Assembly: GCA_001805245.1 (NCBI GenBank)
Contig: MHEU01000007.1
Span: 31,662 to 64,509 of the forward strand
Source of the DNA: Nitrospirae bacterium RIFCSPLOWO2_02_FULL_62_14
GTDB taxonomy: Bacteria; Nitrospirota; Nitrospiria; Nitrospirales; Nitrospiraceae
DNA: 32,848 nt
Reading direction: 5' to 3'
The notes under the pieces are model-generated. The model was given only the letters and a program-made list of their open reading frames with translations. It was not told where the DNA came from and made no database searches. Of this stretch, positions 22,522 to 30,318 are shown piece after piece. Positions within the stretch are counted from its first letter, which is position 1; each line of letters opens with the position of its first letter. The translations under genes were made by a program, and so were the position numbers.

Positions 22522-25053
22522 CTACCCGGTCAACCCGACGATATTGTACGTCGCCACCGGGGCCTGGAAGCCTTTGAGTCTCAGGTCGCCGATCGGCTCG
22601 GCCTGGACCAGCGGTTTGACCAGTTCATGGACGCGGCCTGACACGAGGATCTGGCCATGCTGCGCCTCGCTGCAGAGCCGCGCGGCGAGGTTCGTCACTT
22701 TTCCGATGGCGGCATAATCCGTTCGTTTTTCGAAGCCGACGATACCCAGGGTCGCATAGCCGGTCGCAATGCCGACGCCGGCTCCGAGATCGAAGCCGTA
22801 CCGCTTCCAGCCCTCCTGCAACTGGTTCACGCGGTCGCGCATCGCGATCGCCATCCGCACCGCCTGCTCCGGATGGTCTGGAAGCGGCAGCGGATCGTTG
22901 AAGAAGACCATCATGGCGTCGCCAGAAAATCGCTCCAGCGTGCCCTGATACGCGGTGACGATCCTTCCCATTTCTCCTTGATATTGGCGGAGCACCGCCA
23001 TGACGTCTTCGGGGTCCGCGCTGTCCGCGAACGCGGTGAAGCCCCGCAAGTCGATGAACAGCACCGTGATCTCTTTCCGACGGCTCTTGAGCAGCTGCTC
23101 GGACTGCCCTGATGTTAACAAATCCGCGACTTGCGCGGGCAGGAACCGTTTGAGCTGTTCCTGCTGCAAGGCAAGCAGTTCGCGCTCCTGCGCGCGGGCC
23201 TTGATCAAATTTCCGACGCGGGCGAACACCTCGTGCTCGTCGAACGGTTTGGCCAGGTAGTCGTCGGCGCCCGCCTCCAGCGTCTCGACGCGGGCATCCG
23301 TGCCGGCCCGCGCGGTCAGGAAAATGACCGGCGTGGAGCGCAGCTGTTCGTCGCTTCGCACGGCCTTGAGCAGGTCGTCCCCGCTCATCCTGGGCATCAT
23401 GGCATCGGTCAGGATCATGTCCGGCTTGTGCGCCCTCGCCAGCTCCCAGGCCTCGGCGCCGTCCTTCGCGAGCATGACGCGGTAGCGGCTGCTGAGGATC
23501 CGTTCCAGGTAGCGGCGCATGTCGGGGTTGTCGTCCGCCGCGAGCACCAGGGGAAGATTGCCGTCGGATGCCGGTGTGGCGGCGGCTTGCGCGGGGGTTT
23601 CGAGGCCGTCGCGATACGCCTCCGGGACCTCGAATGCGTCTTCGTCTCCGAGATCTTCAATGATTCCCTGCGGCCGGCCCGTACGCGGCAGGGTGATGGT
23701 GAAGGTCGAGCCCCGGTCGACGATGCTCTCGACAGCCACCCGGCCCCCGTGGGTGGCCGCGACCTCCTTGACCAGCGCCAGCCCGATCCCGGTACCCTCG
23801 TAGCGTCGCGTCGCGCTTCCCTCCACCTGGGTAAACCGGTCGAAGATCTGGTCCAGGTGTTCGCGTGGGATCCCGATGCCGTTATCCTCCACCGTCAGCT
23901 CGACGCTGTCCGGTTTCTCGGTCAGCCCGATCCAGACCTGGCCTTCCTCGGGATCGCTGAATTTGAAGGCATTGGAGAGGAGGTTGTAGAGGACTTTTTT
24001 CATCTGCCGGAGGTCGGCGTCGATCGGAACCAGCCCGCTCATGCCTCGCAAGTGAACCCGCCGCCGGCCCGAGGATTCGAAATTGGCCGCCACGTTCCTG
24101 ACCAGCGCGCACAGGTTGAACCATTGCTTTTTGGTCTGCGCGCGGCCGCTGTCGAACCGCGCAAGGTCCAGGAGTTCATTGATCAGGTACAGCAGGCGGG
24201 ACGCGTTTCGAGTCCCGGTCTGGGCGAGTTCACGGCTTTCCGGCGTGGGCGCGAGCCTGCCCAGCGTCCGGAACGTCCCCAGGCACAGGGTCAAGGGAGT
24301 CCGGAGCTCGTGGCTGATGTTGGCGAAGAACTCGCTTTTGAGGCGGTCCAGATCGAGCAGCTTCTGGTTCGTCGCCTCGAGTTGCTGGCGGGCCTGGCGC
24401 TCCGAGACTCGCGCGCGGAACTCGTTGTGCTGCACGCGCTCGTAGAGATAGACCGAAAACAGCACCGCGACGCAGGTCCAGACCAGGAAAAAGGAGTTTT
24501 CGATGGCGGCATTGACCGCGGCGGCATCCGGCGGGTGAACGTAGAAATTGGACCCGTAGTACGAAATCAGCACGACCAGTTGCGCGAACAGGTGGCTCGG
24601 CCAGGAAATCGGAACGATCACGCCCGCGGCCAGGAACACCAGATTCAAGCCGTTGTAATACTGCGCGCCGAATCCGCCCAGCTCGACCGTCATCTGCACG
24701 ATGCAGAGGTTCCCGACCAGGACCCACAGGATCAGCAGCGCTTCCGGCGTGACCAGCGTGAGGCCGCGGATCAGCATGAAAAAGCAGATGATGAGCCCGA
24801 GCTCGAGATAGGCGCGAATCTCCAGCAGGGGCCGGAGGTGTTCGCGATGGAGCAGGACGTCCGCGGCGACGAACGCCAGATTGGCCGTCAGCCCGAGATA
24901 GTACAGCACTCTGAGACGTTCACGCGCGAACCGGCTGCGCCAGGTCTCGTAGCTGTCCGGCAGGTCCGTGTCAGGGGGAGCGGCGGGCTTGCCGGCTGTG
25001 GGGGCGCCTGGAGCCGGCTGCGCCTCGATGGGCTGAGGCAGGGACTGTGCCAT
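22522..25053 (-). CDS. Membrane histidine kinase-receiver-adenylate cyclase fusion
   Basis: An 843-residue signalling protein joining two-component and cAMP outputs. In order: a Pro/Ala-rich N-terminus (1-35), about six membrane helices (50-205) with no extracytoplasmic sensor of note, a short coiled coil (207-235), HisKA with phospho-His248 (ANISHELRTPL), HATPase with DNGIGIP and GTGIGLAL, a linker, a receiver with phospho-Asp550 (ILTDAMMPRMSG) and Lys602 (LAKPF), and a class III cyclase (about 660-840). In the cyclase the metal ligands are FIDLRGF and SGDAMMVFF, and EKRTDYAAIG has the Lys/Asp pair that selects ATP, so cAMP is the predicted product. ATG 25053 follows GGAGG; a TTG one codon upstream is less likely. 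Confidence 0.9.
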   Translation of the reverse strand: MAQSLPQPIEAQPAPGAPTAGKPAAPPDTDLPDSYETWRSRFARERLRVLYYLGLTANLAFVAADVLLHREHLRPLLEIRAYLELGLIICFFMLIRGLTLVTPEALLILWVLVGNLCIVQMTVELGGFGAQYYNGLNLVFLAAGVIVPISWPSHLFAQLVVLISYYGSNFYVHPPDAAAVNAAIENSFFLVWTCVAVLFSVYLYERVQHNEFRARVSERQARQQLEATNQKLLDLDRLKSEFFANISHELRTPLTLCLGTFRTLGRLAPTPESRELAQTGTRNASRLLYLINELLDLARFDSGRAQTKKQWFNLCALVRNVAANFESSGRRRVHLRGMSGLVPIDADLRQMKKVLYNLLSNAFKFSDPEEGQVWIGLTEKPDSVELTVEDNGIGIPREHLDQIFDRFTQVEGSATRRYEGTGIGLALVKEVAATHGGRVAVESIVDRGSTFTITLPRTGRPQGIIEDLGDEDAFEVPEAYRDGLETPAQAAATPASDGNLPLVLAADDNPDMRRYLERILSSRYRVMLAKDGAEAWELARAHKPDMILTDAMMPRMSGDDLLKAVRSDEQLRSTPVIFLTARAGTDARVETLEAGADDYLAKPFDEHEVFARVGNLIKARAQERELLALQQEQLKRFLPAQVADLLTSGQSEQLLKSRRKEITVLFIDLRGFTAFADSADPEDVMAVLRQYQGEMGRIVTAYQGTLERFSGDAMMVFFNDPLPLPDHPEQAVRMAIAMRDRVNQLQEGWKRYGFDLGAGVGIATGYATLGIVGFEKRTDYAAIGKVTNLAARLCSEAQHGQILVSGRVHELVKPLVQAEPIGDLRLKGFQAPVATYNIVGLTG

Positions 25054-25111
25054 CAAGATCCTCCGAGGTCCAACGATACCCAGCGTGATGGGTGATGTGA
25101 GACTGAAGGAT

Positions 25112-26910: not shown

Positions 26911-27019
26911 GGTATGCTGTTCGTGGACGTATAAGCCTCGCTGACTGTCCCATCCCTCGCGCTTCCGACCTCCTCCCAGCGCGACTGATTCCCCAGTCTC
27001 CGCCGCTTCAACGCCGGAG
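26911..27019 (+). ncRNA. Conserved leader, copy 1 (possible structured RNA or leader)
   Basis: About 109 bp, aligned without net length change to 28781-28889. Both copies begin with GGTAT(G/A)(C/T)TG, a -10-like box, share CTCGCTGACTGTCC, GCGCTTCC, GATTCCCCAGTCTCCGCCGCTTC and ACGCC, and end near GAG. Both keep GACTG near the 5' end and CAGTC near the 3' end, able to pair, with a GCGC/GCGC pair inside. No coding frame fits both. It precedes a group of small genes starting at 27085. The rest of 26797-27084 shows nothing else. Confidence 0.5.
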
Positions 27020-27084
27020 CCGCTCGCAATACAAGAGGCCGTGGTGTTGCATGCCGGCCGCAATTGGCTCCACAAGGGAGATAC

Positions 27085-27315
27085 ATGACCTGCCCTCGTT
27101 GCCGCGGTCTGATGATCATCACCGCATTGATGGACGTGGGACGCTCCACGGACCGTCCTTCCGGATGGCAGTGCCTGATGTGCGGGGAGATCACCGATCC
27201 CGTCATCGCCGCCAACCGGAAAGGGCACTGCGAGCCGGTACGCAATGGCGCGCGCCCGCCCGGCTCGCCAACGGTGTCCGGCAACAACGTCAAGCGCAAG
27301 CGGGCGGGCCTCTGA
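27085..27315 (+). CDS. Small Zn-ribbon protein
   Basis: A 76-residue protein with a zinc ribbon formed by C3-P-R-C6 and C30-L-M-C33, separated by a short beta region (GLMIITALMDVG). The C-terminal part is basic and low complexity (KGHCEPVRNG to VKRKRAGL). Probable nucleic-acid or protein binding, not assigned. AAGGGAG at about 6 bp before ATG 27085 decides the start; an in-frame TTG at 27064 would add seven residues ahead of it. It is the first gene after leader copy 1. Confidence 0.65.
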   Translation: MTCPRCRGLMIITALMDVGRSTDRPSGWQCLMCGEITDPVIAANRKGHCEPVRNGARPPGSPTVSGNNVKRKRAGL

Positions 27316-27383
27316 AACCGGTTTCGTGCACGATCGTGGAAACGTCAACCAACCTCGGAGTACGGAGTAAAGGAGATCACACC

Positions 27384-27674
27384 ATGAAGACCCAACTCAT
27401 TACACGCACCATCCTGATCGCCCTGCTGGCGCTGATTCCCTGGATTGCCGCGTCATCCGCCGAAGCGGCCGGGAAAGCGCCGAAACCATCCGCTCCGCCG
27501 ACCCAGTCGGAAGGGCGCAGCATCGTGGCGTCGGGCGCGGTCGAAGACTCGCAGGAGGCCTGCCTGGCCAGAATTCCCAAGGACGCCACATCCGGCCAGC
27601 GCATGATCGCCGAACAAAGCTGCAATCGGGACCAGACGTCCAGGCAGTCGATCCAGGACGTACCGGGCCGCTAG
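27384..27674 (+). CDS. Small secreted hypothetical protein
   Basis: A 96-residue exported protein. Residues 1-29 are a signal peptide (MKTQLITRTILIALLALIPW, cleavage near SAEA-AG). A Pro/Ala/Ser linker follows (KAPKPSAPPTQ), then a short domain with two Cys, Cys60 and Cys80, in QEACLARIPKDA and AEQSCNRDQ, likely forming a disulphide. Strong ribosome site AAAGGAG before ATG 27384. No known family was recognised; it is probably a periplasmic protein of this lineage. Confidence 0.65.
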   Translation: MKTQLITRTILIALLALIPWIAASSAEAAGKAPKPSAPPTQSEGRSIVASGAVEDSQEACLARIPKDATSGQRMIAEQSCNRDQTSRQSIQDVPGR

Positions 27675-27694
27675 GCACAGGAGGCGTGACGACC

Positions 27695-28036
27695 ATGAGC
27701 GAAGAAAAATCGGGAAAGGCTGCCGTCGGATCGCCCTGGATCAGGATCCCGAACGGGACCAAGGTCCGGCACAAGGCCGAGGGGAAGGACGGCGTCGTGG
27801 ACGGCTTGACGGAAATCGTCGAGGGGCCCGGCCGGAATCCGGACGGGCGGACGCAGTATCGCATCGATGTGGCGGGGGCGCCCGCCATGCACCTGGCGGC
27901 CGAGGACGATCTGGTGCTCCTCACGGACAAGGCCGGACTGGTCCTCATCCTCAAGCAACAGGAAGGGTATCGTCGCCGCATCACGGAGCGGCTCCACGCC
28001 ACATTCGCCGCTGACCGGTTCGTGGTCTTGAAGTGA
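27695..28036 (+). CDS. Hypothetical protein (SH3-like beta barrel?)
   Basis: A 113-residue soluble protein. Residues about 14-72 read as a small beta barrel resembling an SH3 or KOW-like module: PNGTKVRHKAEGKDGVVDGL, then GRTQYRIDVAG and the DDLVLL strand. The C-terminal 40 residues are helical and basic. The function is unknown. AGGAGG lies about 10 bp before ATG 27695; a GTG at 27686 would be too close to that site. Short gap (20 bp) from the secreted protein gene. Confidence 0.6.
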   Translation: MSEEKSGKAAVGSPWIRIPNGTKVRHKAEGKDGVVDGLTEIVEGPGRNPDGRTQYRIDVAGAPAMHLAAEDDLVLLTDKAGLVLILKQQEGYRRRITERLHATFAADRFVVLK

Positions 28037-28083
28037 CCGGGCCATTCAACGCGGACGGATCGGCCATAGCAGAAGGAGAGACG

Positions 28084-28443
28084 ATGAAAACGGAGATCAT
28101 GCGGAAGATCGTGATCAATACCAGCTTCGAAGATTTTTGCCTCAGCCACGCGGCATTTCTCCGCCTGCGCGAACTAGGGCAGAAGGATGCGCTGCAGGAG
28201 GTTGACCTGGGAGCGTACTGGCCCCAGGCAGCCGCTCCGCAGGAGCCGAGCCTGAACCGCTGCGGGCGGGAGGTTCCGAGGGACGATCGGCATCTGGTCC
28301 GGGTGGTGGAGGAACTGGGCATGCGGGCCAACGGGCATGCCGCCTCGCTCAAGATTGTGGAAATTCCCTCCGACGTCACGTGGAAAATCGAAAAGGTCGG
28401 GGGACAGGAGCGCGTGAGCGAAGCGCACCGCATCTGGGGCTAG
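28084..28443 (+). CDS. Conserved hypothetical protein
   Basis: A 119-residue soluble protein. Segments that look conserved are KIVINTSFEDFCLSHAAFLRLRE at the N-terminus, LVRVVEELGMRANGHAASL in the middle, and the terminal VTWKIEKVGGQERVSEAHRIW with its two-strand, Trp-ending module. Proteins with this ending occur in other bacteria without known function. AAGGAGAG before ATG 28084 supports the start over an in-frame codon at 28033. It is probably cotranscribed with the preceding gene (47 bp). Confidence 0.6.
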   Translation: MKTEIMRKIVINTSFEDFCLSHAAFLRLRELGQKDALQEVDLGAYWPQAAAPQEPSLNRCGREVPRDDRHLVRVVEELGMRANGHAASLKIVEIPSDVTWKIEKVGGQERVSEAHRIWG

Positions 28444-28495
28444 CGTGCCTCGAGCCTGTCTCCTCCCCGATGGGCCGGTGCGTGACAAGGCGGTC

Positions 28496-28753
28496 ATGGC
28501 TGATACCTGCTATTACAAAGGAACGAAGATCCTCCTCGTGTTGCGCCGGAACGCCCGCGGGAAATGGGCGTGCCAATTCACGATTCCGGGATTAACGGTG
28601 CCGGCAGCCGGGAAGTACGAAGGCCATCCGCCGAAGGAATACGAAACGGAGCTGGAAGCGGAAACGGCTGCATTCGAGCGCTCGAAGAAGATTCTTGACG
28701 CGTCACATCAGGGCACGGGCGAGAGCGGGTTTCTCCGGAAACAACACGGGTAA
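28496..28753 (+). CDS. Hypothetical protein
   Basis: An 85-residue soluble protein with a beta N-terminal half (TKILLVLRRNARGKWACQF, TIPGLTVP) and a charged helical C-terminus (EYETELEAETAAFERSKKIL). The pattern suggests a small stress-type or RNA-binding-like fold, but no family is recognised. ATG 28496 follows AAGG by about 7 bp. It is the last gene before leader copy 2. Confidence 0.5.
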   Translation: MADTCYYKGTKILLVLRRNARGKWACQFTIPGLTVPAAGKYEGHPPKEYETELEAETAAFERSKKILDASHQGTGESGFLRKQHG

Positions 28754-28780
28754 ATAGTCAACAGACACCCTTTGAGGCGT

Positions 28781-28889
28781 GGTATATTGAGTTATGTCGT
28801 ACTGAGCTCGCTGACTGTCCTATCCTCGCGCTTCCCGCTTTCTTCCCGGCGCGCCCGATTCCCCAGTCTCCGCCGCTTCTACGCCAGAG
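28781..28889 (+). ncRNA. Conserved leader, copy 2 (possible structured RNA or leader)
   Basis: Partner of 26911-27019, with TATATT as -10-like box at 28783-28788. The outer GACTG/CAGTC pairing and the inner GCGC/GCGC pairing are retained although intervening bases changed. It leads into the DUF1328-like gene at 29025 after a further 135 bp of non-coding sequence in which I see no other feature. Confidence 0.5.
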
Positions 28890-29024: not shown

Positions 29025-29183
29025 ATGATCTACTACACGTGCATGCTCGTGCTGGTCGGATTGGTTACGGCAATCCTGGGATTCGACGGGGTGAGTGCGG
29101 TCGCGATTCAAATTGCCGCGATCCTGTTCGTGGTCGAGATGGTGATGTGCCTGGCGACGGGACGCACCGTTGAGGCTCCGTGA
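29025..29183 (+). CDS. Small membrane protein, DUF1328-like
   Basis: A 52-residue protein that is nearly all membrane: helix 1 about 4-18 (TCMLVLVGLVTAILGF), a Gly/Ala turn (DGVSAVAIQIAA), helix 2 about 30-46 (ILFVVEMVMCLA). The order LxxxLVxAxLGF-x-GxxxxAxxIAxILF resembles DUF1328 (YtjA-type) proteins, often found with stress genes. GAGGAAG before ATG 29025. It is too short for a transporter by itself; role unknown. Confidence 0.65.
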   Translation: MIYYTCMLVLVGLVTAILGFDGVSAVAIQIAAILFVVEMVMCLATGRTVEAP

Positions 29184-29267
29184 CCGGCGAATGCCGGGCT
29201 GTCCAGCCGGCAGAAACCCGGGAGAGTATTCGTTCATTTAACGTACGACTATCAGAAGGAGGATCCA

Positions 29268-29588
29268 ATGGCAGACGAGAGAGGGTTTTCAGCAGGAGCA
29301 GCGGGCCTGATCTTTTTGATCGGGGGACTGGCCGGGGCGGCGGCGGCGCTGTTGCTGGCGCCACAATCCGGTCGTGAGTCGCGGGAACAGTTGCGGCGGT
29401 ATGCGCGGCGCACGGAAGAGAATTTTCATGAGCTGGCCGATAAGGCCACCGAGGCCCTGGGTCGGGCGGTGGATGCGGGACGCGGGGTCATCCAGGAGAA
29501 AAAGTCGGTCCTGTCCGGTGTGTTCGAGGCCGGTCGCGACAATATTCGGCAGAAGTACGAGGAGTTGGCCGGCGAGAAGAAGGGGTGA
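29268..29588 (+). CDS. YtxH domain protein
   Basis: A 106-residue protein with an N-terminal Gly/Ala-rich membrane helix (GLIFLIGGLAGAAAALLLAP, 14-33) followed at once by the PQSGRESREQLR signature of YtxH-family (general stress) proteins, then a long amphipathic helix to the C-terminus suggestive of a coiled coil. YtxH proteins are stress-induced in Bacillus; the biochemical role is not known. Strong ribosome site AAGGAGG before ATG 29268. Confidence 0.85.
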   Translation: MADERGFSAGAAGLIFLIGGLAGAAAALLLAPQSGRESREQLRRYARRTEENFHELADKATEALGRAVDAGRGVIQEKKSVLSGVFEAGRDNIRQKYEELAGEKKG

Positions 29589-29590
29589 CG

Positions 29591-29758
29591 GTGAACGAAC
29601 AAGTGGTGATCGGCCAGGAGGAAGAGGAGCGGTCTGCCGGCAGCAAGGACGGCACGAATCCGGGCGACAGGCATCACGGCAGCCTGCACCAATGCTTCGC
29701 TCCCAAGTGGAAGTGTCTGCGGAAAAATGATCACTGCGGAAAAGGAGACGCGCAATGA
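29591..29758 (+). CDS. Putative 55-aa Cys-containing small protein
   Basis: A GTG-started frame 2 bp after the YtxH stop, with AAGGGG about 6 bp upstream. Its stop overlaps the next start (ATGA at 29755-29758), which argues for real translation. The N-terminal half is acidic (QEEEERSAG). The C-terminal half is basic with Cys35, Cys42 and Cys49 (HQCFAPKWKC, then KNDHCG), a possible metal site. No family recognised. Confidence 0.45.
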   Translation: MNEQVVIGQEEEERSAGSKDGTNPGDRHHGSLHQCFAPKWKCLRKNDHCGKGDAQ

Positions 29759-29898
29759 CAGCCGAAGAGCAAATGGTGAAGATGACGACGGCGATCAAGC
29801 AGGCCATCAAGGTGATGGGGGACCGGTTCGGGTCCACGGAGGAAGAGGTCGCGAGGGTCATTCAGGAACTGAAGGCGTCGCTGCAGGGCGCCGCGTAA
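29755..29898 (+). CDS. 47-aa helical hypothetical protein
   Basis: A small protein predicted as two helices: EEQMVKMTTAIKQAIKVM and STEEEVARVIQELKASLQ, joined by GDRFG. Its start overlaps the preceding stop (ATGA), and AAAGGAG lies about 7 bp upstream. The composition suggests a small regulator or protein-binding peptide; no family assigned. Confidence 0.55.
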   Translation: MTAEEQMVKMTTAIKQAIKVMGDRFGSTEEEVARVIQELKASLQGAA

Positions 29899-29926
29899 CC
29901 GTGTCCCCGAGGCAGAGGAGGAGCGC

Positions 29927-30160
29927 ATGAAAAACCAGCCGCGGATCTACCTGCTCACGATGAATTCGCCGTCCCACAAAGCTCCCCGGCTGTGGACGGG
30001 GAGGAGCATCCACGCATTGCGCCGCTGTTCGGCCAAGCAGGTCGGCAATGCGCTGGTTGAGATGCAGCAGAGCGTGGACGATCTGCAAAAAGACATGAGC
30101 ACGTTGAGGTACGCGAAGGCATCGGGGGCTCTATCAACAAAAGGGGTGGAACGACCATGA
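29927..30160 (+). CDS. Hypothetical protein with C-terminal coiled coil
   Basis: A 77-residue protein: a basic N-terminus (PRIYLLTMNSPSHKAPRLW), then a heptad-like helix (VGNALVEMQQSVDDLQKDMSTLRYA). GAGGAGGAG about 4 bp before ATG 29927. Its stop overlaps the next start (ATGA), implying coupled translation. The function is unknown. Confidence 0.5.
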   Translation: MKNQPRIYLLTMNSPSHKAPRLWTGRSIHALRRCSAKQVGNALVEMQQSVDDLQKDMSTLRYAKASGALSTKGVERP

Positions 30161-30318
30161 AAAATGACAACGCCAAGTCTCCCAAGGAGCATAGCGACCG
30201 GAAAACCGACACCGTGCGCAAACGGGGCAGCGCGCGCGCGCCGCAACGGGCCGGCGACGGCCTGACGTGCAGCGAAGCCCAGGTGGAGGCTCTGCTGTCC
30301 GAGGGCGAGTCAACCTAG
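30157..30318 (+). CDS. 53-aa basic hypothetical protein
   Basis: A small protein with a Lys/Arg-rich, likely disordered first half (KSPKEHSDRKTDTVRKRGS) and an acidic helix at the end (CSEAQVEALLSEGE). ATG 30157 overlaps the stop of the preceding gene (ATGA), with AGGGG about 10 bp upstream. The end helix resembles the N-terminus of small response proteins, but no family is assigned. It is the last gene of the small-gene run; 30319-30448 shows only a hairpin (GACGC/GCGTC near 30358-30372). Confidence 0.5.
   Translation: MKNDNAKSPKEHSDRKTDTVRKRGSARAPQRAGDGLTCSEAQVEALLSEGEST

Follow-up and report, generated by a model that had tools for sequence, protein, structure and literature searches.

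The sibling small RNAs LhrC of Listeria and cuckoo/CcsR of alphaproteobacteria occur in multiple copies, carry CU-rich apical loops and are transcribed from promoters of their own. A chaperone of the Hfq type is usual in many, though not all, systems of this kind. In Escherichia coli, the ompA leader is a 5′ stem-loop that stabilizes its mRNA, and the leaders of the cspA family are 5′-terminal structured leaders repeated before several stress genes. Nitrospira is responsible for much of the world's nitrite oxidation and also performs complete ammonia oxidation; to our knowledge, RNA-level regulation in Nitrospira is almost unstudied. The element of Nitrospirota described here resembles LhrC and cuckoo/CcsR in its multiple copies, CU-rich apical loops and own predicted promoters, and differs from them in its leader position, its fixed distance to a same-strand gene and the lack of a detectable terminator or Hfq. 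As in the ompA leader, its helix starts on, or directly beside, the predicted transcription start (+1); unlike in ompA, its loops are conserved in sequence and many different genes lie downstream, suggesting recognition besides 5′ protection. The cspA leaders share with it the repeated position before stress-type genes, and the likeness extends to the gene side, where some element operons hold DEAD-box helicase, RRM, desaturase or HSP20 genes (and also DUF2934 genes). In contrast to the cspA leaders, which Rfam lists as 'cspA thermoregulator', the element has no Rfam match at E ≤ 1 and shows little temperature effect on Shine–Dalgarno (SD) accessibility in silico. Identity with a cspA cold-shock leader was rejected, the cold-box-like TGACGTACNGA, which we take to represent the E. 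coli cold box, being present in just 11 of 251 copies.

The window, that is, the whole stretch of DNA analysed, comprises 32,848 nucleotides of Nitrospirae bacterium RIFCSPLOWO2_02_FULL_62_14. A first-pass annotation had proposed that two stretches of about 109 bp in it (26911–27019 and 28781–28889) align over their full length, each with a −10-like box at its head, conserved outer and inner arms around a drifting loop and no shared reading frame, and that they may represent an undescribed RNA element. The alignment is borne out, repeat finding in the window giving 88% identity across 49 nt and a second block of 23 nt, and the landmarks are present in both copies:

26913–26918, + strand: −10-like box of copy 1, TATGCT; relatives carry TTGAC-N17/18-YAGNNTGA here
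26925–27019, + strand: leader RNA element copy 1, from alignment and pair counts; predicted transcript start about 26925; covariance-model match 106.6 bits
26943–26998, + strand: core hairpin of copy 1; outer arms GACTG/CAGTC (26943–26947/26994–26998), ATC 26952–26954 with GAT 26987–26989, inner arms CGCGC/GCGCG (26958–26962/26979–26983)
26963–26978, + strand: pyrimidine-rich apical loop of copy 1, TTCCGACCTCCTCCCA
28783–28788, + strand: −10-like box of copy 2, TATATT
28795–28889, + strand: leader RNA element copy 2, from alignment and pair counts; predicted transcript start about 28795; covariance-model match 104.9 bits
28813–28868, + strand: core hairpin of copy 2; outer arms GACTG/CAGTC (28813–28817/28864–28868), inner arms CGCGC/GCGCG (28827–28831/28849–28853)

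The first start codon follows after 65 nt in copy 1 (27085) and 135 nt in copy 2 (29025), and the loop between the inner arms drifts as annotated. Across copies the length of the hairpin loop varies freely modulo 3, so the element is not coding. A micro-ORF of the form AUG-ACG-UNN-UGA, found at the 5′ end of many copies, was rejected on inspection of the alignment because it is lost in the DUF1328, ErpA and cluster-7 groups. In single-sequence folding, copy 1 agrees with the hairpin (z = −2.8), and copy 2 folds no better than shuffled sequences (z = −0.5).

The duplication is not a matter of chance, since plain DNA similarity located a third site of this genome (3.8e-16), which precedes a DUF1328 and a CsbD-like gene, the covariance model raised the number in this genome to five, and the element was found in 57 of 100 related genomes by a plain DNA search (at most six copies in each). 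Searching related genomes with the element thus yielded the further copies anticipated: a profile search of the relatives' loci returned 138, and a later set holds 251 distinct copies. With the covariance model R1, 165 of the 236 genomes of the order were positive, a lower bound because of the strict filters, with 26 of 37 genera represented and up to 12 copies per genome. In a phylum-wide draw of 296 genomes there were 69 positives, 67 of them in the same order; the other two are a clear case from a different family within the same class (G330) and a weak one (G302). When about 85,000 bacterial and archaeal species were scanned for an exact pattern, 113 stretches were returned. The 80 matches listed all bear Nitrospira, Nitrospirae, Nitrospiraceae or Nitrospirota labels, N. 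moscoviensis, N. defluvii and N. lenta among them, except for one metagenome-assembled genome named 'Deltaproteobacteria DP_1', and those later matches that could be named are Nitrospirota too. The DP_1 contig (L137) carries the element and a DUF1328–CsbD gene layout identical to that of a Nitrospirae contig, and it is therefore likely mis-binned.

Comparison with Rfam 15 returned no family that matches the element: the whole window gave no match at the gathering score, copy 1 none at E ≤ 1, and ten relatives' loci at E ≤ 0.1 only a tRNA and pieces of group II introns. Nothing on the element was found in the literature on small or structured RNA and CsbD in Nitrospira, and the N. moscoviensis transcriptome paper, for which small RNAs had been removed, mentions neither the element nor its genes. 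The element is therefore a new RNA family of a known kind, the structured 5′ leader, confined as far as seen to Nitrospirota.

The first pair counts were made on an alignment of 133 copies built with MAFFT and no structural information (A2). It supports one long, interrupted hairpin, GACGU-AGC-CG-GACUG-AUC-CGCGC...GCGCG-GAU-CAGUC-CG-GCU-ACG, in which standard pairs fill 91.3% of cells. Double compensatory changes, at least one per pair, are seen at 15 of 23 pairs, where shuffles average 9.2 and none of 500 gets as high; sliding the partner by 1–3 columns lowers pairing to 27–48%. Because the structure had been derived from the A2 sequences, the count was repeated on 79 copies kept out of the model, where 91.2% of cells are paired and 15 pairs carry double changes, against a maximum of 13 in 300 permutations. 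Compensatory change, named at the outset as the check on the RNA reading, is thus seen in both sets. Cells with G–U number 233 and those with A–C 72, so pairing is better on the + strand, on which the downstream genes lie, than on its complement; shuffled partners likewise have more G–U than A–C, base composition adding to the skew. The apical loop is 84% pyrimidine, the strands of the internal loops are 97–100% pyrimidine and several unpaired positions are strongly conserved. The element has a conserved RNA structure on the coding strand, as a leader RNA does. A function at the DNA level only, as a promoter whose palindromic operator would serve a stress regulator, duplicated as a cassette, would account for the conserved promoter at a nearly fixed distance to the element, but we consider it very unlikely, since G–U pairs are kept where the other strand would carry A–C mismatches and the feature is an interrupted hairpin of about 90 nt with compensatory changes and an indel-tolerant loop.

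The promoter itself, TTGAC-N17/18-YAGNNTGA, lies upstream of 167 of 192 dereplicated copies, compared with 20 of 192 in shuffled controls. Its −10 starts 31–32 nt before GACTG in 122 of the promoter-bearing copies, a nearly fixed spacing by which the predicted +1 roughly coincides with the first base of the outer helix. The copies in the window keep the −10 position (30 nt before GACTG) and have no clear TTGAC −35. Use of the promoter, the +1 and read-through into the genes are inferred from sequence. The same promoter form also stands at places with no reported copy, some of them divergent to one, as at G034:C8:204197-204227 and G182:C1:1416810-1416840, and the promoter class possibly extends beyond the leader family. 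Head-to-head pairs of elements in opposite orientation, about 115–130 nt apart, occur at L044:1493-1828 and L056:2280-2627.

Downstream of the element, the first conserved ORF is on the same strand in 216 of 241 copies, and most of the remaining 25 have an antisense ORF across the element, after which a family gene follows on the same strand. The typical distance to the same-strand gene is 50–140 nt. Where 700 nt or more of sequence is available downstream, only 14 copies have no conserved same-strand gene within 600 nt; all of these have same-strand ORFs, and no clear orphan was found among copies with that much sequence. The genes that come first belong to a small number of families, of which the commonest are CsbD-like (48–50 copies, with a weak Pfam score), followed by small exported proteins (25–28), DUF1328 (22–25), the Zn-ribbon type and cluster 7 (23 each), cluster 3 (14–15) and the ErpA/IscA type (12–13). 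The last is often followed by a 2-oxoacid oxidoreductase-like gene, a name given by eye, Pfam yielding only a weak thiamine-pyrophosphate-enzyme match. Within each family the start codon lies at a nearly constant distance from the element (DUF1328, 117 nt; cluster 3, 130 nt; ErpA, 132–134 nt; cluster 7, 52–53 nt), and the nearest related element has the same downstream family in 145 of 228 cases, where 24.6 are expected. These two regularities mark the copies as inherited leaders and not scattered repeats. They are placed anything but randomly with respect to genes, with the same strand, fixed distances and recurring families, and the rival explanation of a mobile repeat (MITE or REP), which would scatter irrespective of gene start and orientation, fails on the same data.

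The two operons of the window (27085–28753 and 29025–30318) consist largely of families that recur in the copy set:

27085–27315, + strand: Zn-ribbon-like small protein, first behind copy 1 (cluster 2); no Pfam match
27384–27674, + strand: small exported protein, cluster 5, which comes first behind 25–28 copies in the set
27695–28036, + strand: small protein, cluster 8
28084–28443, + strand: small protein, cluster 1; second, after CsbD-like genes, in 40 copies
28496–28753, + strand: small protein, cluster 16; weak similarity to DUF6566
29025–29183, + strand: DUF1328 small membrane protein, first behind copy 2 (Pfam PF07043, 1.4e-6)
29268–29588, + strand: YtxH-family protein (Pfam PF12732, 1.8e-15)
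29755–29898, + strand: small protein 'MTAEEQMVKM...', cluster 3, first behind 14–15 copies in the set
29927–30160, + strand: small protein, cluster 27; after cluster 3 elsewhere
30157–30318, + strand: small protein, cluster 30

Elsewhere in the window, a large gene on the minus strand (22522–25056) appears by eye to encode a histidine kinase/receiver/adenylate–guanylate cyclase fusion. Among the relatives, an operon of element, DUF1328, CsbD, DUF2934 and HSP20 recurs (L031, L046, L202, L229 and L267), with an additional, well conserved stretch of leader, about 117 nt long, between element and DUF1328. In several gene families a second, family-specific hairpin is predicted between element and start codon; it could be the actual switch, which counts against the reading favoured below. 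A divergent sub-family, CGGTNACTATCC...CCCTAGT (L050:2232, L069:7928, L035:1802, L125:1269, L170:5291 and L209:2181), precedes genes for fatty-acid desaturases, small exported proteins or cluster 24, themselves followed by RRM genes; the arrangement recalls cold-shock operons.

How the leader might act was approached through the known routes. A transcription attenuator was rejected, U-runs showing no excess before the gene (11 of 228 copies, 12.3 by chance). That count also bears on the possibility that the copies are sibling small RNAs with their own promoters, whose CU-rich loops block the ribosome-binding sites of other mRNAs in trans, the adjacent stress genes being mere neighbours or fed by read-through. 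The own promoter, the several copies per genome and the anti-Shine–Dalgarno-like loops agree with such RNAs, and a processed leader could still act in trans; however, no terminator-like U-run follows the element, its distance to the start codon is nearly fixed within each gene family, its similarity tracks the downstream gene, clear orphan copies are absent and Hfq was found in none of 31 relatives, with positive controls. We regard this reading as unlikely. On these grounds, of the three candidates named in the first-pass annotation (structured 5′ leader, small RNA gene family and binding platform), the structured 5′ leader is favoured and the free-standing small RNA disfavoured. An RNA on the opposite strand, GGA-rich and titrating CsrA in the manner of CsrB/RsmY, was also rejected: it runs against the wobble pattern, and CsrA is missing from many carriers, not being found in the genome of the window or in several others (10 of 31 in all).

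A switch of translation in cis, or an RNA thermometer, in which the SD sequence forms pairs with either the CU-rich loop or the 3′ UCUCC strand, is suggested by the stress-type genes and by copy 2, whose loop has UUCUUCC, the complement of GGAAGAA ahead of the DUF1328 gene. Yet matched pairs of loop and SD are no better than permuted ones, overall and within families, SD sequences of the regulon pair no better than background ones with any segment of the element, and pairing with the SD is lower for native elements than for shuffled ones, with little temperature effect in silico, all of which makes this mechanism highly improbable. SD sites are stronger in genes that come directly after the element, with a mean of −9.4 kcal/mol against −8.3 kcal/mol for the remaining genes of the loci. 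A new riboswitch, in which the leader would bind a stress-signalling small molecule or ion and switch expression, is quite unlikely: although a conserved, structured, multi-copy leader before many genes, with conserved unpaired positions, is what such a device would look like, the element is a single unbranched hairpin with pyrimidine internal loops and no junction, the downstream genes have no obvious pathway in common, and neither terminator nor SD coupling was found.

The missing Rfam match, terminator and Hfq, together with the gaps in CsrA, point to a structured 5′ leader and not a free-standing small RNA or mobile repeat, and the element lies between a promoter and a same-strand gene with no terminator intervening. 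The proposal of an undescribed structured RNA is thus upheld by compensatory changes, non-random gene position, the Rfam result and the failure of the mobile-repeat account, and the element is very probably a structured 5′ leader. With attenuation, SD pairing, CsrA and Hfq unsupported, what remains is a helix at about +1 and its pyrimidine tracts, which suggests a leader acting in cis, with a shielding role at the 5′ end and a protein as its reader. Each copy would be transcribed from its own predicted promoter, the outer helix beginning at about +1, and the RNA would form a single long, interrupted hairpin whose internal loops hold pyrimidines only and whose apical loop is rich in them. The transcript would continue past the hairpin into the small-protein genes, the leader would serve in cis as a common handle that shields the 5′ end, and an RNA-binding protein may read it, which would allow all these messages to be tuned jointly in stability or translation. 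We assign this explanation as a whole a probability of roughly 0.6; its protein-read step is tentative, at somewhat less than even odds. RRM or cold-shock proteins are our guess for the reader. Of 100 relatives, 99 have RRM proteins, whether or not they carry the element; co-occurrence is therefore uninformative, and they are candidates only. That in the Hfq-less Nitrospirales a single pyrimidine-tract-binding protein, for example of the RRM type, reads the 5′ hairpin on all these mRNAs is a more doubtful proposal still. If it is true, a post-transcriptional stress regulon would extend across the lineage, with the element as its recognition site and the fates of its mRNAs set jointly. The widespread and uncatalogued RNA family described here, with up to a dozen copies per genome, marks out a putative regulon of stress proteins that are small and for the most part unnamed, and it gives a way into post-transcriptional control in bacteria where Hfq was not found.
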